Origin: Zetaproteobacteria bacterium CG1_02_53_45
GTDB taxonomy: Bacteria; Pseudomonadota; Zetaproteobacteria; Mariprofundales; Mariprofundaceae
Reading direction: 5' to 3'
Assembly (NCBI GenBank): GCA_001871925.1
Contig: MNWZ01000110.1
Span: 1-32,674 of the forward strand
Length of the DNA stretch: 32,674 nt
The notes beneath the pieces are model-generated. The model made no database searches and was not told the DNA's origin. It worked only from the letters and a program-made list of their open reading frames with translations. Shown here in pieces: positions 3 to 21,600 of the stretch. Each line of letters opens with the position of its first letter. Positions within the stretch are counted from its first letter, which is position 1. The translations under genes and the position numbers were made by a program.

Positions 3-575
3 GAACTACTCGAGCGGATTAAATATCTGCTGAACCTGCCCGAGCTTGCGACCCCTGAAGAGATCCTGGCTGAGCTGGAGAAGGCGGTTGCCCGTCTGAG
101 TGCCGCAATCAGCTCGGAAGGCTCGGAAGAGGCCAATGCTCAGGCCAACAATGACAACAACCTGATCGATCTGCTGTCACATCTCGAATCGCATGTCGCT
201 ACGCTGGCGGCCAATAGCCAGCAGGATCTGACCGGCTATGTGCCGCGCGGTGAGTTCGACCGCCTCCGCATCGAACTGAAAACCATCACTACCGAGCGAG
301 AAAGCAATCGTGTTGAACTGGCTGTGAACTCCGCCCTGGATGCTGGCCTGATTGCGCCGAAGTCGAAGGCATGGGCCGAGGGCTACTGCCGCCGTGACCC
401 GCAGGGTTTCGCCGACTTCTGCGCCAATGCTCAGAAGGTGGTGCCGCTCGGCGAAGATCCGGCCCCGGCCACAGCCGGCGCACAGGCGCTCTCCGAAGAG
501 GAGCTGGCGATCTGCTCACAGCTGGGTATTTCCCAGGATGAGTTTCTCAAAACAAAACAGGCCCAGGAGGTATAA
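3..575 (+). CDS. Mu-like phage protease/scaffold (gpI-type) protein, 5'-truncated by the window edge
   Basis: Frame is open from nt 3 (ELLERIKYLLNLPELATPEEILAELEKAVARL...) through the listed ORF at 240 to the stop at 575; C-terminus resembles Mu I protein/scaffold; followed by decoration and capsid genes. Confidence 0.75.
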   Translation, partial: ELLERIKYLLNLPELATPEEILAELEKAVARLSAAISSEGSEEANAQANNDNNLIDLLSHLESHVATLAANSQQDLTGYVPRGEFDRLRIELKTITTERESNRVELAVNSALDAGLIAPKSKAWAEGYCRRDPQGFADFCANAQKVVPLGEDPAPATAGAQALSEEELAICSQLGISQDEFLKTKQAQEV

Positions 576-578
576 CCG

Positions 579-977
579 ATGGCTTTAACCAAAGATGCAA
601 ACACACCCGAGCGCGATGGCGCTCTGGTCAGCGCCCCGGTGGCTGCTGCCACCATTATCTATGCCGGATCGATGGTAGCCCTTAATGCCGCCGGAAATGC
701 CGTTCCTGCTGCCGATACAGCAGCCCTGAAGGTGCTTGGCCGAGCCGAGTCGCAGGTGAATAACGCTGCTGGCGCTGCCGGCGACCTGAAGGTCACCGTC
801 AAACGTGGCACATTCCGCTTTAAGAACAGCGGTACCGCTGCACTGGCTGCCGGTGATGAGCTCACCAATGCCCTGGTCGAGGATGACGGCACCGTCGCCA
901 AGACATCAACCAATTCCATCGTCGCAGGCAAGATCATCGAAATCGATGCATCCGGTGTCTGGGTCGAAATCAAGTAA
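579..977 (+). CDS. Phage capsid decoration/cement-like protein
   Basis: 132 aa, Ala/Gly-rich beta-type sequence (GSMVALNAAGNAVPAADTAALKVLGRAESQVNN), located between gpI-like and gpT-like genes; RBS AGGAGG upstream. Confidence 0.6.
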   Translation: MALTKDANTPERDGALVSAPVAAATIIYAGSMVALNAAGNAVPAADTAALKVLGRAESQVNNAAGAAGDLKVTVKRGTFRFKNSGTAALAAGDELTNALVEDDGTVAKTSTNSIVAGKIIEIDASGVWVEIK

Positions 978-993
978 CGGAGGATATGAACCG

Positions 994-2049
994 ATGAAAT
1001 CAACTATCAAAACTATCAGCGCCTGGTCGTTCGCCTTTCTGGTGTGTGCCCTGGCATCCACGCTGGGTGGTGATCCCGCCTATGCCGGCGAAGCGATCGG
1101 CTTCGATATCGGCACTGCCGGCCTGATCGGTATCGGCGGCATCATGGTCAACGCGCAAACGCTGCAGGCGGCGCAGACCAGCTTTAAGACGCTGTTCCAG
1201 AATGCATTCAGTGCAGTGAAACAGTTCTGGACCTCCGTTGCCATGAAGGTTCCGAGCAACACCTCGGCCAATGACTACAAGTGGCTCGGTGAACTGCCCG
1301 GCATCCGCAAATGGCTGGGCGATAAGGTCGTTCACAATCTGGTGGCTCATGGCTATTTCCTGCCCAATGAAGACTTCGAACTGACTGTCGGCGTTGATCG
1401 GAACGACTTCGAGGATGATCAGCTGGGCATCTACAACCCGCTGATGTCCAACCTTGGCGATGCCAGCGCCCGTCATCCCGACGAGCTGGTCTGGCCTGCC
1501 CTGATTGCCGGCTTCACGACTGGCAAGGGCTTCGATGGCGTGACCTTCTTCAATACGGCGCACCCTGTAAACGGTGTTGATGATGCCGATGGCTCCTATG
1601 CCAACCGTCCTGTCACACTCGGCGCCGGTGAGCCGTGGTTTCTGGTAGACGATTCACGTCCCGTGCAGCCGATGATCCTGCAGGAGCGTAAGCCCTACAC
1701 CTTCGTGAGCATGAGCGATGCATCGCATCCGAATGTCTTCATGCAGAAGAAGTTCCTGTTCGGCGTCGAGGCGCGCGGTGCAGTCGGCTATGGCCTGCCG
1801 CAGCTGATCTACGGCTCTCGTGCCACCCTTGATGCAGCCGCATACAAGGCAGCCCGCCTGGCCATGTCCGGCCTCAAGCGCATCGATGGCACACCGCTGG
1901 GCGTGAAGGGGCTGAAGCTGGTGGTCGGTGAAGGCAACTTTGAGGCGGCCAACGTGCTGCTGACCAATGACCGCGACACCGCTGGTGCAACCAACACATG
2001 GAAAGGTACCGCCAGGCTTGAACTTGTCGATTACCTGACCGGCGCATAA
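994..2049 (+). CDS. Mu-like major capsid protein (gpT family) with hydrophobic N-terminal extension
   Basis: TLQAAQTSFKTLFQNAF...VPSNTSANDYKWLGELPGIRKWLGD...FELTVGVDRNDFEDDQLGIYNPL...HPDELVWPALIAGF is typical of gpT; start at 994 preceded by GGAGG; the track ORF start at 805 lies inside the previous gene in another frame. Confidence 0.85.
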   Translation: MKSTIKTISAWSFAFLVCALASTLGGDPAYAGEAIGFDIGTAGLIGIGGIMVNAQTLQAAQTSFKTLFQNAFSAVKQFWTSVAMKVPSNTSANDYKWLGELPGIRKWLGDKVVHNLVAHGYFLPNEDFELTVGVDRNDFEDDQLGIYNPLMSNLGDASARHPDELVWPALIAGFTTGKGFDGVTFFNTAHPVNGVDDADGSYANRPVTLGAGEPWFLVDDSRPVQPMILQERKPYTFVSMSDASHPNVFMQKKFLFGVEARGAVGYGLPQLIYGSRATLDAAAYKAARLAMSGLKRIDGTPLGVKGLKLVVGEGNFEAANVLLTNDRDTAGATNTWKGTARLELVDYLTGA

Positions 2050-2062
2050 GGGAGGATGAATC

Positions 2063-2230
2063 ATGGCTAAATCGAAGATCACTATTCCACAGGTCAATGG
2101 CCTCAGTCTCGGCGGCGATATCGGCCACCTTGGCAAAGGCCACCATGAGCTGGAGCTGACTGCAGCGCAGATCAAGGATCTGAAGGCCGCAGGCGTGAAG
2201 GTCGAATCAACCGCTGCAATCAAGGGCTGA
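2063..2230 (+). CDS. Small phage head-region protein, 55 aa
   Basis: ATG at 2063 preceded by GGGAGGATGAATC; MAKSKITIPQVNGLSLGGDIGHLGKGHHELELTAAQIKDLKAAGVKVESTAAIKG; below the length cutoff of the ORF track; position matches the small gene after T in Mu-like phages. Confidence 0.6.
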   Translation: MAKSKITIPQVNGLSLGGDIGHLGKGHHELELTAAQIKDLKAAGVKVESTAAIKG

Positions 2231-2232
2231 TG

Positions 2233-2265
2233 GAGATCGGGCGGGGCCAGCGCCACGCCCGTCTC
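2233..2265. promoter_or_regulatory. Strong hairpin (GAGA-t-CGGGCG g GGC CAGC GCC a CGCCCG TCTC)
   Basis: Inverted repeat read directly: 10 bp outer stem with one bulged T plus a 3 bp inner stem. Confidence 0.6.
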
Positions 2266-2282
2266 TAAACTAACGCACAAGC

Positions 2283-2319
2283 TCAGCCGAGGAGGCGCGT
2301 CAGCGCCGATGTCGGCTGA
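2283..2319. promoter_or_regulatory. Two-tier hairpin TCAGCCGA gga GGCGC gtca GCGCC gatg TCGGCTGA
   Basis: 8 bp outer and 5 bp inner perfect inverted repeats read directly. Confidence 0.65.
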
Positions 2320-2356
2320 AGCGCCGGGTTATACGGCGACTCGAACGGAGGAACGA

Positions 2357-2599
2357 ATGGAACAGACAAGACTTGGCTCTCTGATTGAGTCACTGATGAA
2401 CATTGCCATTGGCTACGGCGTTGCCCTGCTCTCACAGATTGCGATCTTCCCGCTGTTCGGCATCCATGTACCGCTTACCACAAACCTGTGGATCGGGGCA
2501 TGGTTCACGCTGATAAGCCTGGTGCGCAGCTACGTGATCCGGCGGTGGTTCAACGCTCGCCTACATCGCGCGGCGCAGGCGATGGCGCGAGCCGTATAA
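2357..2599 (+). CDS. Small phage membrane protein (DUF7220-like)
   Basis: MEQTRLGSLIESLMNIAIGYGVALLSQIAIFPLFGI...WIGAWFTLISLVRSYVIRRWFN; start 2357 has RBS GGAGG; two hydrophobic segments. Confidence 0.65.
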   Translation: MEQTRLGSLIESLMNIAIGYGVALLSQIAIFPLFGIHVPLTTNLWIGAWFTLISLVRSYVIRRWFNARLHRAAQAMARAV

Positions 2600-2614
2600 C
2601 AGGAGGAATCATCG

Positions 2615-3043
2615 GTGGCTTATTCAACGTATGCAGATCTGATCAAGAAGCATGATGAGCAATATCTGATTCAGCTCTCGGATGATGATGGTGATGGTAT
2701 TGCCGACGCTGTCGTGATCGATGAGGCCATAGCTCAGGCCGATGCCGAGATCAATGCCAGGATCTCGATGCGCTACAGCGTGCCGATGAATCCGGTACCG
2801 GCACTGGCCACCAGCATTTCGGCCACACTGGCCATCGGCAACCTCTACAGCCATCGCGGCATGGATAAGCCGGATACAGTTAAAGACGATGTGAAGGCGG
2901 CGATCGCGCTGCTCGATCGCATCGGAGAAGGCAGAGCCACCTGGGGCGAGGCTACAGAGCCAGCAGCCGATACAGCGCAGCTCGATGTGCGAATCAGCAG
3001 TCAAACCCGTGTTTTCAATCGCAACAACATGAGCGGGTTCTGA
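2615..3043 (+). CDS. Mu gp36-like head completion protein (DUF1320)
   Basis: GTG start after AGGAGG; MAYSTYADLIKKHDEQYLIQLSDDDGDGIADAVVIDEAIAQADAEINARISMRY. Confidence 0.75.
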   Translation: MAYSTYADLIKKHDEQYLIQLSDDDGDGIADAVVIDEAIAQADAEINARISMRYSVPMNPVPALATSISATLAIGNLYSHRGMDKPDTVKDDVKAAIALLDRIGEGRATWGEATEPAADTAQLDVRISSQTRVFNRNNMSGF

Positions 3044-3044
3044 A

Positions 3045-3482
3045 ATGGCGTTTCAGATTCTGCCCCTGCAGTCGATCGTTACCAGGCTGGAAGATCAGGC
3101 CGTCGGCTTCAAATCACTGGCTGGTGCTGCCGAGCTTGAGCAGGCAATCGCGGGTGGTGTCCGGGTCGCACCGGCCGGGTTCGTTGTTCCGCTTAAGGAG
3201 GATGCCGGCGCGAATACCACCGGCACCATGATCGTCACACAGGATGTGACAACCCGGTTCGCGATTGTATTCGCGGTCAAGGATCTCTCTGACCGCAGCG
3301 GGAAGTCGGCGATCGATGGCGGCCTTCGTGATCTGCGCATTGCGGTCGGCAATGCTCTGGTCGGCTGGGCTCCGGCTGGATTCAACATCTGTGAATGGGA
3401 TGGTGGCTCCATCGTCCGCATCGGCGGCGGAACAGTCTATTGGCGCGATCGATATCGCACCTCACACATCAACGAATTGTAA
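3045..3482 (+). CDS. Mu gp37-like (DUF1834) / tail terminator protein
   Basis: 145 aa; order after gp36-like protein; LEDQAVGFKSLAGAAELEQAI...DLRIAVGNALVGWAP. Confidence 0.65.
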   Translation: MAFQILPLQSIVTRLEDQAVGFKSLAGAAELEQAIAGGVRVAPAGFVVPLKEDAGANTTGTMIVTQDVTTRFAIVFAVKDLSDRSGKSAIDGGLRDLRIAVGNALVGWAPAGFNICEWDGGSIVRIGGGTVYWRDRYRTSHINEL

Positions 3483-3495
3483 CACGGAGGCAACT

Positions 3496-3630
3496 ATGGG
3501 ACGCGCAGGCGGCAGCTATAAACTTGATGAATCAGGCAAGAAAACACGCCAGGAGGTGGTGACGCCTCCGAAGTCGGCGCAAAAGCCGATCAAACCGACC
3601 AAAGCGGCACAGACCGCGAAGGAGGCATAA
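3496..3630 (+). CDS. Small basic phage protein, 44 aa
   Basis: ATG preceded by GGAGG; MGRAGGSYKLDESGKKTRQEVVTPPKSAQKPIKPTKAAQTAKEA; stop directly abuts the next start; missing from the ORF track. Confidence 0.55.
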   Translation: MGRAGGSYKLDESGKKTRQEVVTPPKSAQKPIKPTKAAQTAKEA

Positions 3631-4590
3631 ATGTATAACGCGAAACAGATGGCCATCGCCGCAGCTGTGGAAGCGGCCTATGGCACCGACCCGGTGCCGA
3701 CGGCAGCAGCCAATGCCATGCTGGCCGAAAATGTGAAATGGACAGAGCTGGATGGTGAGGAGATCACCCTCGAACATGTGCGGCCGGGGGGATTCGGCGG
3801 CTACGAAAAGGAGCTGCTAAACAAGCGCTCAGCCATCGATTTCGATGTGCGCCTGCGCGGGGCCGGAGCGGCAGGCGGCGTGCCAGCCATCGATCCACTG
3901 CTGCGCGCAACAGGCTTTGCTGCAACCAACACCCCCGGTGTTTCGCAGGTCTACAACCTGGTCAGTCAGGGGTTCGAGTCTGCATCGATCTATGCGTTTC
4001 GCGGCAACAGCAGCAACGCGGTTCGCCAGCGCCTGCTGGGTGTGCGCGGTTCATCCAAGCTCTCGATCGGCACCAAGGATCATACCAAGATGTCATTCAC
4101 CATGCAGTCGCTCTACGATGCTCCGGCTGCATCGACTATGCCTGTTGATTTCGATTTCTCCGGCTTCACGAACGTGGCGATTGCCGCCGTCAACAAAATC
4201 AACACCACGTTTACGCTCGGTGGTCTGGCGCTGCAGCTGGAGAAGCTCGATATCGATCTGGGCTTTACCGTTGGCCACACCGCGCTGGTTAATTTTGAAC
4301 AGATTGAAATCACCGGGCGCACCGTGACCGGCAGCATCACCATACGCGAACCTGATATCGCCACGATCAATATGTTTGAAACTGCCTATGGCAAGGGCGC
4401 TGCGCTGGAGCCGCTGGTGTTCGAAAACGGCGTGACAGTCGGGCAGATTTTCCGCATCGATGCCGCCCGTGTGCAGCGCGGCAAGCCGAGCCGTGGCGAT
4501 TCGAACGGCGTCTCAACACTCACCATCCCGCTGGAGTTCCTGCCATCCGATGCCGGCGACGATAACGACCTTATTCTCACATTCAAGTAA
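3631..4590 (+). CDS. Phage tail tube protein (siphovirus type)
   Basis: 319 aa; NAKQMAIAAAVEAAYGTDPVPTAANAMLAENVKWTELDGEEITLEHVRPGGFGGYEKELLNKRSAIDFDVRLRG; no sheath or FI/FII pair seen nearby. Confidence 0.7.
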   Translation: MYNAKQMAIAAAVEAAYGTDPVPTAAANAMLAENVKWTELDGEEITLEHVRPGGFGGYEKELLNKRSAIDFDVRLRGAGAAGGVPAIDPLLRATGFAATNTPGVSQVYNLVSQGFESASIYAFRGNSSNAVRQRLLGVRGSSKLSIGTKDHTKMSFTMQSLYDAPAASTMPVDFDFSGFTNVAIAAVNKINTTFTLGGLALQLEKLDIDLGFTVGHTALVNFEQIEITGRTVTGSITIREPDIATINMFETAYGKGAALEPLVFENGVTVGQIFRIDAARVQRGKPSRGDSNGVSTLTIPLEFLPSDAGDDNDLILTFK

Positions 4591-4613
4591 CCTTCAAGTA
4601 AAGGAGCATAACT

Positions 4614-4940
4614 ATGTCATACACCCTCACAGAAGATCGCCGCGTTATGTGGCCAGTGACCATCAATGAGCCGGCCGATGGCGGCAAGATCACGCGCCGG
4701 AAAATCGATATCGAGTTTCGCATTGATGATATAGCGAAGTGGGAAGAGACAGGCGAATCTGTAAAGGATGTGCTGACGCGCAACATCGTTGGCTGGAGTG
4801 GCTTGCAGAATTCGAAGAAAGAGCCGGTCCCGTTTAACGATGAGACGCTTGAGCAGCTGTTGACAGATCCGTATGCACTGCCGGCGATCTGGAATGCGTA
4901 TCTTAATGAAGTGCTCGCCGGGGCCGAAGCAAAAAACTAG
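4614..4940 (+). CDS. Tail assembly chaperone, zero-frame product (lambda gpG-like position)
   Basis: 108 aa between tail tube and tape measure; ends with GCA AAA AAC TAG. Confidence 0.75.
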   Translation: MSYTLTEDRRVMWPVTINEPADGGKITRRKIDIEFRIDDIAKWEETGESVKDVLTRNIVGWSGLQNSKKEPVPFNDETLEQLLTDPYALPAIWNAYLNEVLAGAEAKN

Positions 4941-5311
4941 CGGACGCCGCAAAATTCTGGGTTGAGCAGAGCCGGGGCGGCGCCGGCGGAGATGAGACGG
5001 TACTGGCGGGGCTTGGTGCGATGGGCGCTCCGGCCGAGGTGATCGAGCAGTACCAGGCACAGAAGGCCAGTGAAGAGACCTTCGCCATCTGGCCGGAGAA
5101 TGCACGGGCACTGGAACTGTTTCTGGCGCTCGGTACGCAGTGGCGCACAAGCCTTGTGCCTGTCCAGGGCGGCTTCTTCCGCCATGTCGATGGACTCGAT
5201 TATCAGGCCGCAGAGGCGGTGATGCGGATAGATTGCGATCGCAATCGGAAAGACCTGTTTAGCCGGCTCCGGATTATGGAATCGGCAGCACTGGAGGAGT
5301 TGAACAGCTAA
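4614..5311 (+). CDS. Tail assembly chaperone frameshift fusion (gpGT-like), join(4614..4937,4937..5311), predicted 232 aa
   Basis: Slippery A_AAA_AAC at 4931-4937 immediately before the stop; the -1 frame stays open through KLADAAKFWVEQSRGGAGGDETVLAGLG into the 5021..5311 ORF. Confidence 0.8.
4931..4937 (+). other. -1 programmed ribosomal frameshift site AAAAAAC
   Basis: Canonical X_XXY_YYZ heptamer in the correct phase; downstream GC hairpin potential (GCGG-acg-CCGC at 4940-4950; GCCGG...CCGGC further on). Confidence 0.8.
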
Positions 5312-7950
5312 TGAGCAGTGGCGGCGATATCAAACTTGGCATTACGCTATCAGGCGACGGATCGCAGCTGGTCGGCGAGATTAAGCTATCGGCGGCTGAA
5401 TTCGACAAGATGAAGAAATCCGCCGAGGAGATGGGCAATACCTCGGCCGCTCAGCACCGCAAGATGACCGCCGCTCAGTCCGACTTCTCGCGCAAGCAAT
5501 CGGCCTACAGCGCCCTGCAGATCCGCAGCAATCAATCCATCTCGCGCGAGATCGACAAGGTGCAGGGCGCATATGAACGGCTGGCGGCCTCCGGAACCGT
5601 ATCACAGCAGGAGCTGGCTCGGGCCAGCCGGGCAGCCGAGAGCAGCGTTGCCGCACTGCGCGAAGAGCTCAATGGTGCCGCCGAAACCACATCGAACTTC
5701 AGCAATACCATCGGCGAGCTCGGTAAAGCCGCCGCCGCGCTCTACGTGCTGCGCAATGCCATCAACGCCAGCCAAAAAGCGGCGGTCGAGAAGGAAGCTG
5801 CGCTCACCGGTCTGGCCAGTCAGGCGCGCTATGCCGGAGAAAGCGTCCGGGGATCGATGGTAGCTGCATTGCAACTCAATGATGATGCGATGATGAAGAA
5901 TGCGCAGTCGGCCAAGGCGCTGCAGAATCTTCTTTCACGCGGCTTCTCTCTGCAGGAGTCGATCAACCTGATCAATCGATTTAAGGATTCAGCGGCATTT
6001 GGCCGACAGGCGTCGCTCGGCTTCGGCGAAGCTGTGGTGTCGGCCACCGAAGGTCTGAAGAACGAAAACTCGATCCTTGTTGATAATGCCGGCGTCACCA
6101 AAAACGTCAGCGTGATGTGGGAGGAGTATGCGGCTGAGATCGGCAAGTCGGTCAATGATCTCTCGATGGCCGAGAAGCGTCAGGCTGAATACAACGGCAT
6201 CATGCGCGAGACCGAAGCGCAGCTCGGCAATGCGGCAAGAGCGGCATCCGGTTTGCAGGGGGCGCAAGCCCGCATGGTGCAGGCGCAGGATGATGCGGCA
6301 GCATCGCTTGGTGAAGCGCTGACGCCGGCATTGACCGGCTTCTATCAGATCGCTGCCCGGGGCGTGAATAACGTTGTCAAGCCGCTGATCTTCGAGATTG
6401 GATCGTTCGGTACCGCCGCCGGCGCCGCTGCTACCGAGGCCGGCATCCTCTGGGATGCACTGATGAATCCGGTCGATACGGTCAAAAACTTCGGCGCCTT
6501 CAAACAACGTCTTGCCGATGCTGAGAAGCTGGCGCATGACATGCGGGCAAATCTGGCTGCAGAGCTTGCTGGCGATCAGATCAAGCTGCCGGAAATCGGC
6601 AAGGATAACGGCAAGCGCCGTGTTGATACGACTACCAAGAGTGGCGACAATGATGCTGGCAAGGATAACGGCAAGCGCCGTGTTGATACGACTACCAAGA
6701 GCGGCACTACCAAGAGTGGCGACAATGATGCTCTCAAGAAGCTGGCTGATGAATCCGGGCGTTTTGCTGCGCAGTTGCTGGCCGCCAACGATGACGCTTA
6801 CACCAGAACCTCCAATAAATATGTGGAGATGTGGCAGAAGCTGGTGGCTGCGCATGGCGAAGGGTCTGCCAGGGTCAAGGGCCTTGAATCTGCCTATCAG
6901 GCCTGGGTGAATGAATCTGCAGCTGCCGCGCTGGCTAAAGAGAAGGAGAAGACCGACAGGGTTGTCTCGCTGCAACAGGCAAAATACACCCGCCTGAATC
7001 AATCTGCAGCAGAGGCGATGGCCAGCGATGATGAGCGAGCTCAAATCCGGCTTGATCGCGATCTGCAGGCGATGGCCGATGAGCGGCAGCGGCTGATCGA
7101 TCAGAAGACATGGACCGCCGATCTGGACGATCAATATACACAGGCACGCATCGATCGCGCCCAGATTACGGCGCTCGAGATCGAACGGATCAACGACGAA
7201 AGCCGCCTGCGCCAGGTGCAGAAGGTGGATGAGTCCGAGCAGGCGGCGAGCGGGCTGAAGCTGCAGTTCCAGCAGCTGGCTCAGGAGAACCAGCTTGTTC
7301 ATCTCGGATCCCTGGCCAGCAATCTGATCACATTCAGTGACGCATTTGTCGAGATCGACAAAGAGACCGGCAAGAAGCAGCTCGCTATCGATAAGCTGAC
7401 CGCTGATCAGAAGCTGAGCCTGACCGCATCGGCGCTGGGGGCTATTTCCGGGCTGATGCACAGCAAGGGCCGTGCGATGTTCGAGGTCGGCAAGGCGGCC
7501 GCGCAGGGCGAGAATGCGATCAGCACAGCCCGGGCCGCAATGAACGCCTACGCTTCGGCTTCTGCCATCCCATACATCGGTTTTATATTAGGCCCTGTGG
7601 CCGCCGCCGCCGCTGTCGCAGCCGGCATTTCCAATGCGCAGAAGATTAACAGCGCGCAATTTGGAGCATCCGCATCCGGCGGTGCATCCGTGCCATCCAT
7701 CTCAGCCGGCGCAAGCAATGTGGTGCCGATCAATCCGGGCACCGGCGCGCCGGCGACATTCGGCCAGGGCGGCAGCAATCAGTCGGCGCCGCGCAAGATG
7801 GATATCGATTTCCGGATATCCGGAGCCGATCCGGGATCGCTGGATGCCATCTCCAACAATCCGGATGCGCTGCGCAAGATTGCCGACGGCATAACGCCGA
7901 TGATTCAGCAGAATATGGATGCGCAGCTGAACTTGCGCCTGACGGCCTGA
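5311..7950 (+). CDS. Phage tail tape measure protein
   Basis: 879 aa, long helical/coiled-coil sequence after the chaperones, hydrophobic segment YIGFILGPVAAAAAVAAGI near the C-terminus. Confidence 0.85.
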   Translation: MSSGGDIKLGITLSGDGSQLVGEIKLSAAEFDKMKKSAEEMGNTSAAQHRKMTAAQSDFSRKQSAYSALQIRSNQSISREIDKVQGAYERLAASGTVSQQELARASRAAESSVAALREELNGAAETTSNFSNTIGELGKAAAALYVLRNAINASQKAAVEKEAALTGLASQARYAGESVRGSMVAALQLNDDAMMKNAQSAKALQNLLSRGFSLQESINLINRFKDSAAFGRQASLGFGEAVVSATEGLKNENSILVDNAGVTKNVSVMWEEYAAEIGKSVNDLSMAEKRQAEYNGIMRETEAQLGNAARAASGLQGAQARMVQAQDDAAASLGEALTPALTGFYQIAARGVNNVVKPLIFEIGSFGTAAGAAATEAGILWDALMNPVDTVKNFGAFKQRLADAEKLAHDMRANLAAELAGDQIKLPEIGKDNGKRRVDTTTKSGDNDAGKDNGKRRVDTTTKSGTTKSGDNDALKKLADESGRFAAQLLAANDDAYTRTSNKYVEMWQKLVAAHGEGSARVKGLESAYQAWVNESAAAALAKEKEKTDRVVSLQQAKYTRLNQSAAEAMASDDERAQIRLDRDLQAMADERQRLIDQKTWTADLDDQYTQARIDRAQITALEIERINDESRLRQVQKVDESEQAASGLKLQFQQLAQENQLVHLGSLASNLITFSDAFVEIDKETGKKQLAIDKLTADQKLSLTASALGAISGLMHSKGRAMFEVGKAAAQGENAISTARAAMNAYASASAIPYIGFILGPVAAAAAVAAGISNAQKINSAQFGASASGGASVPSISAGASNVVPINPGTGAPATFGQGGSNQSAPRKMDIDFRISGADPGSLDAISNNPDALRKIADGITPMIQQNMDAQLNLRLTA
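6598..6732 (+). repeat. Nested in-frame direct repeats within the tape measure gene (60 bp period)
   Basis: GGCAAGGATAACGGCAAGCGCCGTGTTGATACGACTACCAAGAG at 6598-6641 and 6658-6701; ACTACCAAGAGTGGCGACAATGATGCT at 6631-6657 and 6706-6732. Confidence 0.95.
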
Positions 7951-7951
7951 G

Positions 7952-8824
7952 ATGATCGAGAATACCGACTGGCCGCTGATCTGCTGGGACAACCAGTTGA
8001 GCCTGGTGAGCAGCTACAGCGTTACCCTGGGGCAGGACGGCTCCTCGGCACCGCTCAACAACGCCTGGACATGGGATGCGCTGCGCCTGGCGATTCCGCG
8101 CGCCGATGCCGGCGGCCAATGGCAGGTGGAGCTGGATATCACACCACAACAGATGCTCGACTCCACGTCGTTCGGCGCCTGGTATTTCGGCGGGTTCGGT
8201 GTTCCGGATGTTCTGGTTCTCGGCGCGCACCAGCATGATGAGGCGGGATTCCGCTTTGCAGAGGGACAGGTGCAACTCGAATACTGGAACGGCGCAGCCT
8301 GGGTGGAGCTGATCGAGCAGCAGGACATTATCGCCGCACCCCATCAATCGATGATCTGTAAAATGGCCTACCATGAGCCGGAGCTGGTCGGGAGCGCCTA
8401 CCGCTATCGGCTGACCTTCTATGGCCTGGATGCATCGGGTGACTTCGTTGTGCCAGAGCTGTTTCTCGGGCCGGCGCTGGAGATGCCGCCGCTCGATCTC
8501 GGCTATGATCCGGAGAATGAGATCTGGACCGGATCGAAATTCCGCGCATCGTCCGGCCGGCTGGTGCGCAGGACCAGCGCCAGGCAGATGATGGGACGAG
8601 CCAGCTGGGACGGCGATGCCCGAATCACGGCGGACAAGATGATCGAGATCAACATGTTTCGCGAGGCGCAGCTGGAGGAGGCGCTGCCTTTCTGGTGGTT
8701 CTGGATGCCGGACTCGGCGCCATTCCACGGCTACCTGATGCTCAACCCGGCAGAAGAGGTGCCGGCCCCCATTCGATCGGGCAACTACCGTACCTGGCAG
8801 TTGCCGATGGAAGAGTCGGTCTAG
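7952..8824 (+). CDS. Distal tail/baseplate-region phage protein
   Basis: 290 aa directly downstream of the tape measure; no motif recognised beyond position. Confidence 0.5.
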   Translation: MIENTDWPLICWDNQLSLVSSYSVTLGQDGSSAPLNNAWTWDALRLAIPRADAGGQWQVELDITPQQMLDSTSFGAWYFGGFGVPDVLVLGAHQHDEAGFRFAEGQVQLEYWNGAAWVELIEQQDIIAAPHQSMICKMAYHEPELVGSAYRYRLTFYGLDASGDFVVPELFLGPALEMPPLDLGYDPENEIWTGSKFRASSGRLVRRTSARQMMGRASWDGDARITADKMIEINMFREAQLEEALPFWWFWMPDSAPFHGYLMLNPAEEVPAPIRSGNYRTWQLPMEESV

Positions 8825-11164
8825 ATGCTGCCGATGAGCCAGGAGCTGATCGAGGCGGCCAGCCAGCTGGGCGCTGTGCCGAAATGGTGGCTGGATATCT
8901 ATGGTCGTCCGGGGCCATCGAGCCGCATCGTCTCACAATCGCAATGGATCGCGTCATCCGGCGCTCAGAAGGCACGCGACAGCAATGTCGATTTCGACCG
9001 CCACCCAGGCAGCGTGGTACTGGCACCAGGCGCGCCTGTAGCCTCGGCTTATGCCGGACCGGATCATCTGGTCGGATCGTTCACCTACATCATCAATCGC
9101 ACAGATGGCTATCATTACGGCGGATTCTGGAATCCGAACCACATCTACGACTGGACGCGCTTCACTGTGAAGCGGCGCGACCCGGGCATGGCGATTCCAT
9201 TCGTTGCCGGCGCCACCCAAATCGTCGACGAACTGAATATCCGCGCCGACTACGACGGCCATCAGTCGATGATCTGCATCGCCCGCATCGTGGACGCCAA
9301 CGGCAACCAGATCGGCAGGGCGGCCAGCTTTATGCCGGCCGCCGGTATTACCACCTACACGCTCACCTATCTCGCCGCCGGCCTGATCTTCAACCGGCAG
9401 TATACCCTGATCATCGATTACACACCGCCGGCTAACGGCACCATTCCTGGCCCGTTCGGTTTTTCGACTTCGTATGACTACACTCACACGATCAACATCC
9501 GTTCGTTCAGCGTGACGGCATCGCAGTGGACCATTGAGGCGGGAGGCGGACGTTTCAGCATGGGAGGGCGTCCCGGTTATATCGGGAGCGGCGAGCTGTG
9601 GCGCATCATCGACGTGGGCAGCATCCCCGCCGGCAGCGGCAACGTCACATTCTCCGACCGGGTGCCGAACGGCACCTCGATGACGATCCTGGCATGGTAC
9701 ACCGACTCGGCCGTTATTGCCGCCGAGGCGGATGAAACAAACTGGATATTTTATGGCCAGGTGGCATCCGGTGACGAAGTGCCGGCGCACCGCTGCTGGC
9801 TGTTCCACATCTCGATGACATCAGACGCATCGCAATCGCTGACGCCGGAGCTGATCGAGCTGGCGGTCAAATATGCCGGTGATCCGATTCGCTTCGGCAT
9901 GGCCGCCAAGCTGGCGCGCACCAGCGAAGCCGGGCAGATGCGACTGTCGCAGATCGCCTTCCCTCTGCTGCATTCGGCAATCTCGTTCTCGGCTGGACTG
10001 AATCCTGCGCTACCCGTGGCCATGCGCAGCAGAACCAAGTTCGACCTGTTGCCGGGAGATGAATCGGATGCGTTACTGGCGCTGCCGCTCAAGGGCAAGC
10101 CGGTGGTTGGACGGGTTGGTTTCGCCGGCACTGAGGATACGGTGGAGGTCTCCTCCTACCTGGTTGACGATATACGCTATACAGGCGGACACTACGAGAT
10201 TGAGGTAATGGACGATTTCCGCCTCGCCGATGCCTCTGTCCCGGCCGAGAACGCCGGCGATTCCTGGAACGACGTTACGGATTACGCCATCAACGACATC
10301 GCGGTGCACGGCTCCGGCTCCTGGCTGGCGCTGGTCGCTTCCGGGCCCGGCGCCGCCGTTGAGCCGGGCACCGACCCGGCCGTGTGGCAGGACAACGGCA
10401 CCGTCTGGGCCGACGTCATCTATACTGCAGCCACCAACAGCGGCGTGGATTGGCATCTGGCAGATATCGCAATCGACCTGTTGACCAATCATGTCAACCT
10501 GCCGACCGAGCGCATCGATATCGAATCCATCCTGGCGCTGAAGACCAAATTCCCGAACCGAAGCGGCAGCCGGATTCTCTCCAAGCCGCAAAAGGCGGCC
10601 ACACTGCTGGCCGAAGTCGCTTGGTTGCTCGAGGCGCAGTTTTTGCGTGTCGGCAATCAGCTTTCGATGGTGCCTGAGCCGGCCGCCGGGGAGCAGGCTG
10701 TCGAATGGATCTCCGACAGCGACATCAAGCACGGCTCGCTCACCTACCGGCGCGGCTGGCGTGAGTTGGTGAACGTCGGCGTGATGTTGGCAGGCTACGG
10801 CGGCGAGGGCGACGACGGCAATGCCTATTTCTCGCAAGGGAGCGGTTACATCAATGCCGCCAGCGTGGCCGAATACGATGCCTCGATATCCGGCAAGCCG
10901 CTGGAAGATCGCTGGAGCATGCCTGTCGCCGAGCGCGAGGCGCGGCTGGCCACTGCTATTGATGTCTATGCCGACGGCCGTCGCGTCGTGACCTTGACGG
11001 CGGATAACAACTACCGGCTGATGCGCCTGGCCGCCGGCAATGTCGTCATGCTGCAAAGCGTGGAGCTGCCGGCCGGAGACCCCGGGCCGCTGCGCATGAT
11101 GGCGGCAAATATCGATGAGGCAGCAAACAACGAATTAAAAATAACACTTTTGGAGGTCAACTGA
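8825..11164 (+). CDS. Large tail hub/tail-tip protein with a carbohydrate-binding-like insert
   Basis: 779 aa; position in tail module; segment SWNDVTDYAINDIAVHGSGSWLALVASGPGAAVEPGTDPAVWQDNG resembles CBM5/12-type modules. Confidence 0.6.
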   Translation: MLPMSQELIEAASQLGAVPKWWLDIYGRPGPSSRIVSQSQWIASSGAQKARDSNVDFDRHPGSVVLAPGAPVASAYAGPDHLVGSFTYIINRTDGYHYGGFWNPNHIYDWTRFTVKRRDPGMAIPFVAGATQIVDELNIRADYDGHQSMICIARIVDANGNQIGRAASFMPAAGITTYTLTYLAAGLIFNRQYTLIIDYTPPANGTIPGPFGFSTSYDYTHTINIRSFSVTASQWTIEAGGGRFSMGGRPGYIGSGELWRIIDVGSIPAGSGNVTFSDRVPNGTSMTILAWYTDSAVIAAEADETNWIFYGQVASGDEVPAHRCWLFHISMTSDASQSLTPELIELAVKYAGDPIRFGMAAKLARTSEAGQMRLSQIAFPLLHSAISFSAGLNPALPVAMRSRTKFDLLPGDESDALLALPLKGKPVVGRVGFAGTEDTVEVSSYLVDDIRYTGGHYEIEVMDDFRLADASVPAENAGDSWNDVTDYAINDIAVHGSGSWLALVASGPGAAVEPGTDPAVWQDNGTVWADVIYTAATNSGVDWHLADIAIDLLTNHVNLPTERIDIESILALKTKFPNRSGSRILSKPQKAATLLAEVAWLLEAQFLRVGNQLSMVPEPAAGEQAVEWISDSDIKHGSLTYRRGWRELVNVGVMLAGYGGEGDDGNAYFSQGSGYINAASVAEYDASISGKPLEDRWSMPVAEREARLATAIDVYADGRRVVTLTADNNYRLMRLAAGNVVMLQSVELPAGDPGPLRMMAANIDEAANNELKITLLEVN

Positions 11165-11757
11165 TGGCTGATCAAACAACGAACTTCGGCTGGCTCAAGC
11201 CGCTCATTGGCCAAGTGAGCCAATGGGGCAAATGGCTACGCAGCTTCATGGACGATCTCGACGCGAAGCTCGGCGCCGAGCACAACACCGATGGCACGCA
11301 TGGAAACATTACCGCCGTTGATCTGGCCATCACAGGCAACGCAGATATCGCTGGAAACATTACCGCCGTTGATCTGGCCATCACAGGCAACGCAGATATC
11401 GGTGGGGCCGCAGATATAGGCGGCCCGCTCACTGTTGCCGGGTCTATCACGTCTGCGGGCATGCTGATCGACACTGTAACGATTCAGAATGCCCTGGCAG
11501 CTGCGGAGGCGGCAGCAGCGGCGGCAGCACAGGATGCGCTGAATGCGGATGAGGACAGGATCGCGGCGGAGGCCGCGTGGACAGCGGCGCTGGCCGCGAA
11601 TCCGGACCTGAACCCAGCACTGCGCATGAACCCCTCCGCGATCACCGCGGACATCACCGTACCGGCCGGATACAACGGCTATTCAGCCGGGCCGCTCGAA
11701 ATCAGCGAGGGCATTGACGTAACAGTGGCCGACACGGCCAACTGGACAATCATCTAA
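11164..11757 (+). CDS. Tail fibre-like protein with tandem repeat and Ala-rich coiled coil
   Basis: GNITAVDLAITGNADIA/GNITAVDLAITGNADIG; AAAEAAAAAAAQDALNADEDRIAAEAAW; C-terminal ADITVPAGYNGYSAGPLEISEGIDVTVADTANW common in phage fibres. Confidence 0.7.
   Translation: MADQTTNFGWLKPLIGQVSQWGKWLRSFMDDLDAKLGAEHNTDGTHGNITAVDLAITGNADIAGNITAVDLAITGNADIGGAADIGGPLTVAGSITSAGMLIDTVTIQNALAAAEAAAAAAAQDALNADEDRIAAEAAWTAALAANPDLNPALRMNPSAITADITVPAGYNGYSAGPLEISEGIDVTVADTANWTII
11301..11402 (+). repeat. 51 bp in-frame tandem repeat, two copies
   Basis: TGGAAACATTACCGCCGTTGATCTGGCCATCACAGGCAACGCAGATATCG at 11301 and at 11352; copies differ only in the last base. Confidence 0.95.
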
Positions 11758-11774: not shown

Positions 11775-13115
11775 ATGAGTAATTTGAATGTGCGCAGCAT
11801 CACCGGCAAGGACGGCCAGCCCGTCGCATTCCCGACCGGCATATCGATCGGCAGCGGTGCCGCCGGATCGACAAATAGCATCGGCATTCCCGGTCAGCAA
11901 GGATTCGGCGTCGGCATCTGTCCCGGCCCGTTGCCCTCCGGCATGGTCGAGCTCTCAGGCACACGCGATCCGGCGTCGGACAACTACGGCAACTATCAGT
12001 ATTCCGATGGCTCGATCATGTGCTGGATACCGGCGTATTTTTACAAGTGGGGCACCGGTGCCAACGGACTGGCGCTCAACGACATCGACATTCAGCCGTT
12101 CAGTGCCTACAGCTCTGTAGCCGAGGCCAATGCTGCCGGCTACGCACTGCACCGGGCATTCTACGACGGCGGCGCCGTGCAGTCCGGCGTGTTCACGGAT
12201 AAATACCTCTGCTCGAACAACGGCGGCATCGCATCATCGATTAAAAACGGCAAACCGCTCTCCAGTCACGTGGATCATAACCCGTTCGCGAACCTGACAG
12301 GCTCCCCGGCCAATGCATATTATGGCGCGATTGATGCGGCAAAAACGCGCGGTGCGTCGTTTTTCTGCAATACGCGCTTCCTGTTCGCCGCATGCGCCAT
12401 GCTCGCCTATGCGCACGCCCGCGCAGCAACGGCCGCGACATGGTGCGCATGGTATGATGCTGATGGCGTCACGAACTTCCCGAAGGGCTGCAACAATAAT
12501 GCGCTCGGTGACCAGCAGGACGGCGGTATTCTGTATATCTCGGATGGTTATATAAATGCCGCAAAAACCGGCTCGGCGAACCTGTTCGCGCGCACAACGC
12601 ACAATGGGCAGAACTGCGGCATAGCGGACCTGAACGGCAACATGTGGGAGATTACTCCCGGCCTGACATCGAACGGCGCCAATCTGTATATTCTCGACAC
12701 GGCTGTGGCGATGAAGGATTTCACCAGCGGCAACACACTGGCGACCGACCTCTGGGGCGCGACCGGACTGGCCGCGATGTATACCAGTCTCGGCGCTACC
12801 TACGAGGCACTATGGGCGACCGGAGCCAATCGCATGATCAAGTACGGCAACGCGGCAGCGCAGGTGTTCAGCGCTGCGGTATCCGGTAATGCCTGGAACT
12901 ATGCCGGGCTCGGTGGCCCGCTCGCCGCCGGCATTGGCGGAACCAACGGCTTCGGCAATGATAAGATATGGGACTATAAGCTAAACGATATGTGCCCGCT
13001 CTCCGGCGGCGGCTGGTCCGGTGCGTCGGATGCGGGGCTGTGGGCGCTGTATCTCAGCAGTACGCGGATCACCTCGACCACTGGCGGGGGTATGCGCGCG
13101 GCCTTGTATCTTTGA
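11775..13115 (+). CDS. Phage receptor-binding/tail fibre protein with C-type-lectin (FGE-sulfatase-like) fold, candidate DGR target protein
   Basis: DLNGNMWEITPG motif and C-terminal GGGWSGASDAGLWALYLSSTRITSTTGGGMRAALYL, closely resembling DGR variable-protein C-termini. Confidence 0.75.
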   Translation: MSNLNVRSITGKDGQPVAFPTGISIGSGAAGSTNSIGIPGQQGFGVGICPGPLPSGMVELSGTRDPASDNYGNYQYSDGSIMCWIPAYFYKWGTGANGLALNDIDIQPFSAYSSVAEANAAGYALHRAFYDGGAVQSGVFTDKYLCSNNGGIASSIKNGKPLSSHVDHNPFANLTGSPANAYYGAIDAAKTRGASFFCNTRFLFAACAMLAYAHARAATAATWCAWYDADGVTNFPKGCNNNALGDQQDGGILYISDGYINAAKTGSANLFARTTHNGQNCGIADLNGNMWEITPGLTSNGANLYILDTAVAMKDFTSGNTLATDLWGATGLAAMYTSLGATYEALWATGANRMIKYGNAAAQVFSAAVSGNAWNYAGLGGPLAAGIGGTNGFGNDKIWDYKLNDMCPLSGGGWSGASDAGLWALYLSSTRITSTTGGGMRAALYL

Positions 13116-13262
13116 GACCATGAGCGATAGCGATGGGGTCCATGCATAAATTCCGCGCGGCAGTCCGGCGCGGCAATGCGGCTGCCGTGGTCTCCATCCT
13201 TGGACACGCGGGCAAAACACACTCTCTGCAGCACATGCTGCACTACGCAAAGGAGCACTATC

Positions 13263-13652
13263 ATGACTATACACGCATACCGGAAATATACCGACGCAAA
13301 CATCAGCCGCGAGCTGCACCTGCCGGACGGAGCCACCGAGCTGGCGACGCTGGACGGCATTACATATGTCCACCTGCCAGCCAACACCACCCTGCCTGCA
13401 GAACAGCCGGCGGAGATCGAAATGGTGGCGGCGGCAATAGACGCCGCGCTGCTGGCAGCCATTGCCGCCGCCAGCCCGCATGTGCGGCTCATCAATGCCC
13501 GTGTGTGCGCCATGATCGCCGAGCGCTACAGCATCGGAGATGAAATCAAAATGCTGCAACTCGCGCCCAGCGTTGAAAGCACGGCCTACAACGATTATGT
13601 CAAAAGCTGCCGCGCCTGGGGCCGCGCCAAAAAAGAGGCAATCGGGCTGTGA
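13263..13652 (+). CDS. Hypothetical phage protein, 129 aa
   Basis: Start 13263 with RBS AAAGGAGC; the track ORF start at 13176 lacks a clear RBS; last gene before the prophage end. Confidence 0.55.
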   Translation: MTIHAYRKYTDANISRELHLPDGATELATLDGITYVHLPANTTLPAEQPAEIEMVAAAIDAALLAAIAAASPHVRLINARVCAMIAERYSIGDEIKMLQLAPSVESTAYNDYVKSCRAWGRAKKEAIGL

Positions 13653-13687
13653 GGTACATTATCTTAATGGTCTGAATATGAAATAGT

Positions 13688-13760
13688 ATTACGCATGGTG
13701 TAATATCGGCGATCTGTAATTATCGCACGTTTGGCCTGTTTTTTTTCACGCGCGGCATCA
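13688..13760. mobile_element. Probable right end of the transposable prophage
   Basis: Phage coding stops at 13652; repeated motifs TGTAATATCG (13699) and TGTAATTATCG (13715) with inverted ATTACGCA (13688); a truncated pflA-like frame begins at ~13757. Confidence 0.5.
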
Positions 13761-14251
13761 TGATGCAGGCTCATTTCATTAAAGAAATATTCTACCTGGC
13801 TAAACACGACTATCACCTGCACACCGCACTGGATACACAGGGCTTTCTGGCTGCTCATCTGGAGGATGAATGGTTTGATGATATCGATCTGGTGCTGCTC
13901 GATATCAAACACATCGATGCAGCCAAACATCAGGCATTAACTTCACAGCCGTTGCAACCGATACTGGATTTTGCCCGGCGCCTCTCTGCCATGGGTAAAA
14001 AAATGTGGATTCGCTATGTGCTGCTGCCGGGTTACACCGATGGCCTTGAAGATGTCGAAAAGCTGGCTGACTTTATCGTTACACTCAACGGCGTTGAGCG
14101 AGTTGAAGTGTTGCCGTTCCATAAAATGGGGGAACATAAATGGCAGGAGCTGGGATTCAAATATCAATTACACGACGTTTTACCACCCTCCCCTGAACTG
14201 GTGAAACGGGTGATTCATCAATTCAGGAAACGTGGGTTGTTCAGTTGTTAG
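13760..14251 (+). pseudogene. pflA: C-terminal remnant of pyruvate formate-lyase activating enzyme-like radical SAM protein
   Basis: MMQAHFIKEIFYLAKHDYHLHTALDTQGF...DIDLVLLDIKHID...MWIRYVLLPGYTD...EVLPFHKMGEHKWQELG; N-terminal CxxxCxxC half is absent. Confidence 0.8.
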
Positions 14252-19078: not shown

Positions 19079-21076
19079 CTATCCTGAATTTTTCAGCCGT
19101 TGCAGCTCATCGCGATATTTCGCTGCATCCTCAAAACGAAGATCGGCCGAGGCTTCCAGCATTAAGCGCTCCAGCTCTTTCTGGCGTACCAGCTTCAATT
19201 CAGGCGTTGAATAATCCGCAATATCTTCTGCTACTTCAGGAATACTCGCATAGTCCATAGCGTATACATTGGACATCGCATCCATGATTTTCTTGATCAC
19301 TGTTTCAGGTTCAATTCCATGTTGAAGATTGTAAGCCATCTGCTTTTCACGGCGACGATTCGTTTCATCTATCGCTCGCTGCATCGATTTGGTCATGCGA
19401 TCAGCAAACAAAATCACTCTGCCCTCGACATTACGTGCCGCTCGCCCGATGGTTTGTATCAATGAACGGTCGGAACGAAGGAAACCCTCTTTGTCAGCAT
19501 CAAAAATTGCCACCAGTGCCACCTCAGGCAGATCAAGCCCCTCACGCAAGAGGTTAATGCCAATCAGAATATCGAATTCACCCAGACGCAAATCACGCAG
19601 AATTTCTGTTCGCTCCAGCGTATCAATATCGGAATGCAGATAACGCACACGCAGATGCAGATTATTAAGATATTCGGTTAAATCCTCAGCCATGCGCTTG
19701 GTCAGACAGGTCGCCAGAACACGAAAACCCTTTTCAATCACGGCACCGACCTCAGAGACAAAACTTTCCACCTGATGCACAGCAGGCAAAATATCAATCA
19801 CCGGATCAAGCAAACCGGTTGGCCGGATAATCTGTTCGGCGAACTCACCACCCGTTTGTTGCATTTCATAAGTACCGGGCGTAGCCGAAACATAAATAGT
19901 CTGAGGCACAGCTTTTTCAAATTCGTGAAACTGTAATGGCCGGTTATCCAGTGCCGAGGGTAAGCGGAAGCCAAAATCCACCAGCGTTTGTTTGCGGGAG
20001 CGGTCGCCTTTAAACATCGCCCCGATCTGCGGCACCGTGGCATGCGATTCATCAAGAATCACCAGTGCATTATTCGGCAGATAGTCCAGCAGAGTCGGCG
20101 GCGGATCACCGGGCTGCTGACCGGTTAAATGTCGCGAATAGTTTTCAATGCCCGAGCAATAGCCAATTTCCTGAATCATCTCCAGATCGAACAAGGTGCG
20201 CTGCTCAAGCCGCTGAGCTTCAACCAGCTTGTTCTGATCATGCAGATCCGCCAGTCGTTCACTTAATTCATCACGAATAGCATCCATCGCTTTGACCAGT
20301 AAATTACGCGGTGTAACAAAGTGAGATTTGGGAAACACGGTGAATTTATGTAGCGATTGCAGTCGCTTCCCTGTCAGAGGATCAAAGCGGGAAATGGCAT
20401 CCACCTCATCCCCGAACAATTCGATACGGATGGCATAACTTTCGGCATCGGCAGGAAAAATTTCAATCACGTCGCCACGCACACGAAATGTTCCGCGATG
20501 AAAATCCATGTCATTGCGCTCATATTGCAATTCCACCAGCTTTTTCATCGCCGTACGTTGGTCAATCTCTCTACCCACCTCGAAATATTGCAGCATATTG
20601 GCATAGGCTTCCGGGCTACCCAGACCATAAATACACGATACTGATGCAATGATAATCACATCCTGCCGCTCCATCAGAGCACGCGTAGCCGAATGCCGCA
20701 TACGATCAATTTGCTCATTAATCGAGGAGTCTTTCTCAATATAGGTATCCGACTGCGGCACATAGGCTTCCGGCTGGTAATAGTCGTAATACGAAACGAA
20801 ATATTCGACCGCATTGTTTGGGAAGAATTGTTTAAATTCGCTGTAAAGCTGCGCTGCCAACGTTTTATTGTGCGCCATGATCAGGGTTGGCTTTTGCACT
20901 TTTTTGATCACATTGGCCATGGTGAAGGTTTTTCCGGAGCCGGTGACACCCAGCAGCACCTGATGTTTTTTACCCTCAACAACGCCTTCAACCAACGTCT
21001 CAATCGCCTGCGGCTGATCTCCTTTGGGGGTAAATTCACCATCAAGCTGGAATATTTGATTCATATTGTCGGACAT
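19079..21076 (-). CDS. uvrB: Excinuclease ABC subunit UvrB
   Basis: [54 protein letters not shown]-terminal UVR motif. Confidence 0.97.
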
Positions 21077-21204: not shown

Positions 21205-21600
21205 GGAGGGTCGAGTGGTCCGAGAGACCTTCCCCCTCAGGCTCTCACAGAACCGTACGTGAGACTCTCACCTCATACGGCTCTTCATGCCCACTTGAAC
21301 TTACCAGGTTTCCATATCGTTCCAGTTCCTCCCATTGCTGGTTGACCGGAAATCCACTTCCGGACATGTCAGCCCCTTCGCACCATCTCCGTTTAACGGT
21401 GGAAGTGCCATGATTACACATATAAGATGATCCATAGCTCTGGCATCTCCGGTTTTCGATCATCATCCGTCTCTGCTGATTGTGTCTTCCTGTCGATTTC
21501 AATGCTTCAGTGAATTTCTTCGTGTCATCATTCATATGAGTAAAAGCCTGCATGAGCTGAAACTTGCCGTCACCATCAATATAGATGATATACAACACTT
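21205..21600 (-). mobile_element. 3' remnant of a bacterial group II intron, no RT ORF
   Basis: Minus strand carries a full domain V and a characteristic preceding sequence ending in ...GAGGGGGAAGGTCTCTCGGACCACTCGACCC; 5' limit is uncertain. Confidence 0.65.
21250..21283 (-). ncRNA. Group II intron domain V, 34 nt
   Basis: GAGCCGTATGAGGTGAGAGTCTCACGTACGGTTC: AGC triad, 8 bp lower stem, bulge, GAGGT/GTCTC upper stem with GAGA (GNRA) loop. Confidence 0.85.

Follow-up and report, generated by a model that had tools for sequence, protein, structure and literature searches.

Is the 3' end of the phage tail gene at 11775-13115 the variable region (VR) of a diversity-generating retroelement (DGR), and is the machinery that would diversify it still present? 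The gene lies in a 32,674-nt stretch of DNA (the window), contig C58 of a 2.44 Mb MAG with 171 contigs and 86% completeness. From the window's letters, the C-terminus of its product had been predicted to be a DGR VR whose variable codons derive from AAC or AAT by adenine changes. Feature coordinates are collected in Table 1.

Table 1. Features of the prophage, the DGR target gene and the remnant downstream of it, in window positions.
Feature	Position	Strand	Description
Mu-like prophage structural genes	3..11757	+	protease I, gpT major head protein and gp36 (Pfam PF10123, PF10124, PF07030); tape measure and tail genes (PHROGs)
DGR target gene	11775..13115	+	446 aa; phage tail/receptor-binding type, relative of formylglycine-generating-enzyme-like C-type lectins; homologues are DGR targets
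VR	12990..13104	+	aligned to 113-120 nt template repeats of relatives; ends 11 nt before gene end
Relic of DGR homing hairpin	13116..13140	+	GACCAT-GAGCGATAGCG-ATGGGGTC; loop GATA, fits the GRNA rule
Remnant Avd start	13133..13138	+	ATGGGG; agrees with Avd starts of relatives in position and sequence; in frame with RT tail
DGR RT 3' stub	13139..13324	+	last ~60 codons; 54% identical to residues 276-338 of the 338-residue L015 RT (E=6e-16)
Next phage gene	13263..13652	+	129 aa; ribosome site AAGGAG (13250-13255) and start codon both fall within the RT 3' end
Prophage right edge	13653..13763	+	homology to a same-genus chromosomal radical-SAM (PflA-like) locus from 13761-13764

For comparison with relatives, IMG/VR was scanned with the target (70 loci, 40-100% identity), a scan of species genomes added 10 loci, and three more scans enlarged the set. 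After removal of duplicates, 136 target 3' ends were examined. A template repeat (TR) was present downstream in 102 non-redundant relatives; pooled over these, the VR differed from the TR at 1513 of 2715 TR adenines and at 55 of 9091 other bases. A minus-strand TR search across the relatives' loci gave chance-level scores only. Among the 95 relatives for which over 1.8 kb of downstream sequence was available, an Avd ORF was found in 94 and a reverse transcriptase (RT) ORF of more than 280 aa in 91. Pfam matches in L014 were to bAvd (PF22296, E=1.4e-17) and RVT_1 (E=1.6e-18). The cassette runs from the target gene with its VR through hairpin, Avd, TR (about +420 to +540 nt) and RT (about +680 to +1700) to the next gene. 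With BPP-1/Mtd-type phage DGRs these relatives share the gene order, the adenine-specific VR/TR mismatches, a 3' hairpin with a GRNA loop, the bAvd and RVT_1 proteins and a C-type-lectin-type target. The full VR-hairpin-Avd-TR-RT cassette is also carried by a Mariprofundaceae MAG (L084/L086, 73% identical); L086 is the nearest named relative of the target, and a genome search placed the same-order genome G064 beside it. These placements suggest a Zetaproteobacteria-like host.

The target protein ends in GGGWSGASDAGLWALYLSSTRITSTTGGGMRAALYL, as had been quoted, with the stop codon at 13113-13115. Compared with the L014 TR, the window VR is changed at 17 of 23 template adenines and at 18 of 92 non-adenines (Fisher p=1.6e-6; p=2.9e-5 for codon positions 1 and 2 alone). 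The templates of seven further relatives gave p values between 2e-6 and 2e-4. As a control, the first 1200 nt of the gene were compared with L014 at codon positions 1 and 2; 30/189 adenines and 127/611 other bases were changed, that is, without adenine excess. L086 was left out of the codon-bias control because the gene lengths differ and an ungapped comparison runs out of register. Eleven codons of the window VR (GGC, TCC, GGT, GAT, TAT, AGC, AGT, ACC, ACC, ACT and GGC) stand opposite AAC or AAT in the template of at least one near relative. The ten from TCC onward were among the twelve variable codons of the original prediction, but its ATC and last GGT do not fall on AAY, and the GGC just before TGG had been overlooked. 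The reading of this end as a DGR VR holds up, given that relatives carry a TR and a DGR RT and that mismatches lie almost only at template adenines. So does the proposed comparison among related genes, in which changes pile up at template adenines within the VR, with no such bias over the rest of the gene. Judged from sequence, the 3' end of 11775-13115 is a genuine DGR-made VR. This VR is no evidence of an active DGR at the locus.

For assignment of the target protein, a family profile was compared with PDB chains. TaqVP (5VF4), the DGR variable protein of Thermus aquaticus with the formylglycine-generating-enzyme type of C-type lectin fold (PMC6328139), was the sole significant chain (E=2.8e-6); its VR (341-374) lies within the match, as the second aligned segment and opposite the window VR. 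Foldseek with the target model also ranked 5VF4 first (E=4.3e-5); the model is of moderate quality with the last 50 residues unreliable, and the pLDDT of 29-45 at the C-terminus of the AlphaFold model is too poor to show a lectin fold directly. TaqVP is thus the only significant PDB match by both profile and fold, with the VRs aligned, but identity is low and the fit is limited to parts of the protein. Pfam searches of the target protein and the next-gene product gave no family above cut-off. Homology to TaqVP and the phage context indicate that the target product is probably a C-type-lectin-type receptor-binding tail protein. In the targets of L054, L055, L057, L061, L065-L067 and L094, about 200 bp of extra sequence separates the conserved N-terminal part from the C-terminal part that bears the VR.

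Downstream of the VR, the removed cassette has left a trace: the Avd start is fused in frame to the 3' end of the RT gene, and the conserved next gene follows. The loop of the hairpin relic follows the GRNA rule for DGR hairpins (PMC3240598). The hairpin is short and was calculated at -3.4 kcal/mol; in most intact relatives with this hairpin type it is stronger (about -4 to -9 kcal/mol), and two intact relatives of the type are at -3.5 and -4.1 kcal/mol. When the whole genome was searched with the L014 RT, the stub was recovered at G000:C58:13127-13273 (51%). The junction lies 24 nt past the VR stop, beyond the hairpin relic, where the remnant Avd start passes into the RT tail. Measured against L015, the deletion comprises about 1.48 kb (Avd, TR and RT core); since the nearest TR-bearing relatives are 69-73% identical to the window, its exact junction and the lost TR are beyond reconstruction. 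Homologues of the next gene come after the RT in about 50 loci and start inside the RT 3' end in most of them. The window differs from BPP-1/Mtd-type DGRs in the deletion of TR, Avd and RT core, with VR, a weak hairpin and the RT tail left. In L035, a second partial copy of the C-terminus of the next-gene product was seen 2388-2555 nt past the gene end.

The remnant is placed at the right end of a Mu-like prophage whose left end is off the contig. A Radical_SAM Pfam match was found at 13760-14251, and because chromosomal homology begins at 13761-13764, the prophage must end between the stop of the next gene at 13652 and that point.

For machinery elsewhere, the 2.44 Mb assembly was searched for a TR by BLAST and by a degenerate pattern (3 mismatches allowed in the 31-nt constant stretch). 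Only the VR itself was recovered, and the near-repeat sought by the original prediction is absent from the window and from the 86%-complete assembly. The DGR RT and Avd that it expected in the host fared likewise: no DGR RT was found over the assembly apart from the stub and no bAvd above threshold, with one sub-threshold bAvd-like match. Four RVT_1 matches were considered as an RT acting in trans and rejected, three resembling group-II-intron RTs and the fourth divergent and without a nearby TR. It is very unlikely, therefore, that a TR and RT in the unassembled part of the genome, in the missing left part of the prophage or in another prophage still diversify the VR in trans. The incompleteness of the MAG and the prophage end lying off the contig leave room for such a source, a GC-rich 3' VR segment and a recognisable hairpin persist, and distant DGRs that serve remote targets are known (PMC7517822, PMC4891356). 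In intact relatives, however, TR and RT adjoin the target, and an IMG/VR search for an intact version of the window phage returned only an identical contig with the same deletion and junction (L013), which may stem from the same sample as the window. Other retroelement traces were noted in this genome. At G000:C138:2063-2596 (L004 1261-2163, minus strand), a divergent 300-aa RT with the active-site motif FIDDF adjoins an asparagine-synthetase-like ORF, with a group-II-type RT close by; the arrangement of RT matches around it is also found in the same-genus genome G010. In the window, a Group II intron domain V-like 3' end (21210-21286, minus strand; Rfam RF00029, 61.7 bits) lies just upstream of uvrB (19079-21076, minus strand); the contig gave no RT ORF match to go with it.

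That L013 carries the same junction also speaks, within the limit of a possibly shared sample, against an assembly artefact that would hide an intact DGR in the living phage. Metagenome assemblies are involved, and TR/VR near-repeats may confuse an assembler. Collapse of such repeats would join VR to TR, however, and would not predict the observed junction between the hairpin/Avd start and the RT 3' end. In addition, deletions are shared across separate IMG datasets by L182/L184/L185 and by L025/L026. An artefact is accordingly held to be highly improbable. Still less credit can be given to the view that this is an ordinary tail gene of the C-type-lectin kind, without any past as a DGR target, whose AAY look comes from codon usage. 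The wider target family does include divergent members with neither TR nor RT (L065, L068 and L077), but in the window an RT stub lies directly 3' of the VR, and the changes concentrate at the template adenines of relatives, a bias that the rest of the gene lacks. The stub and the adenine-specific pattern together refute this reading.

The best explanation for the locus is that the phage carried a DGR aimed at this gene and lost the machinery by internal deletion, which left an orphaned VR in a Mu-like prophage; we put the probability of this at roughly 0.9. The ancestral order was that seen in the relatives, with target gene and VR, hairpin, Avd, TR, RT and next gene. By mutagenic retrohoming, as comparison with the TRs of relatives shows, an AAY-rich TR was copied into the VR with randomisation of adenines only. 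A single later deletion of about 1.5 kb, the remnant of which is directly visible, then brought the 3' end of the RT gene up against the sequence that lies immediately after the hairpin of the VR. Avd, TR and the RT catalytic core were lost with it, whereas the target gene was spared, as was the beginning of the gene that follows the RT. With these parts deleted, the VR is orphaned and its variant looks frozen: the present VR is probably a fixed variant for which diversification in cis would no longer be possible.

For the family as a whole, TR and RT core were missing in 20 of 121 classifiable loci. On a gene tree of the target protein without its VR, cassette loss was reconstructed as 17 changes, at least 14 of them on supported (starred) branches, so loss arose many times. 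On the right, most deletions end within the 3' part of the RT, short of the next gene; on the left, they end near the VR stop or within Avd. L033 and L230 are ~98% identical in the target-gene region, and 1602 bp are lost in L033; the L033 VR differs from the L230 template at 19/26 adenines and 0/88 other bases. The L117 VR differs from the L121 template at 18/25 adenines and 1/89 non-adenines, with about 1155 bp lost, and the L205 VR from the L035 template at 14/27 and 0/87. From these sister pairs, some of the losses must be recent. The junctions of L033 and L117 show just short imperfect microhomology. Close phage pairs without and with Avd-TR-RT (L033/L230, L117/L121, L205/L035 and L216/L214) constitute natural experiments on DGR loss. 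Point inactivation of the RT is rare in TR-bearing loci; an in-frame stop or frameshift was found in three of the four that have no full RT ORF (L208, L076 and L091).

In about 10-12 of the 19 listed deletions, the window included, the reading frame left over after the Avd start extends up to, or almost up to, the point where the next gene begins. This suggests, speculatively and on a small sample, that the deletions able to persist are constrained by coupling to the next gene. As a tentative proposal, which we consider somewhat less probable than its opposite, internal deletions would lock the DGRs of this family time and again, in every case leaving intact the VR and the beginning of the gene that follows, and often leaving an Avd-RT fusion frame that runs into this beginning. 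Fixation of a successful receptor-binding variant with translational coupling kept would then be a common, selected outcome for the DGRs of prophages.

Orphan DGR targets are already known. Leftover target genes without RT or TR occur in Treponema denticola strains (PMC4891356) and, as all3226-type paralogues, in cyanobacteria, for which removal of the machinery once a good variant arises has been proposed (PMC7517822). As in the window, RT and TR are gone in these cases and the VRs differ from the TRs of relatives mainly at adenines. The window differs from them in the RT 3' stub that marks the deletion, in its Mu-like prophage carrier and in the many losses within one target family. A literature search, with subscription papers mostly outside its reach, returned leftover targets and no account of recurrent deletion with an RT tail. 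What is added here, with no earlier description among the searchable papers, is the visible stub, a Mu-like prophage as the setting and independent loss at a high rate within one target family.

Finding a DGR-like VR in a genome need not mean that the DGR is active. The window presents a halted DGR with the cut still visible. With about 17 losses that arose independently, some of them separating sisters ~98% identical, it can be asked how long phage hypermutation persists, and whether its loss reflects neutral decay or selection for a good receptor-binding variant.
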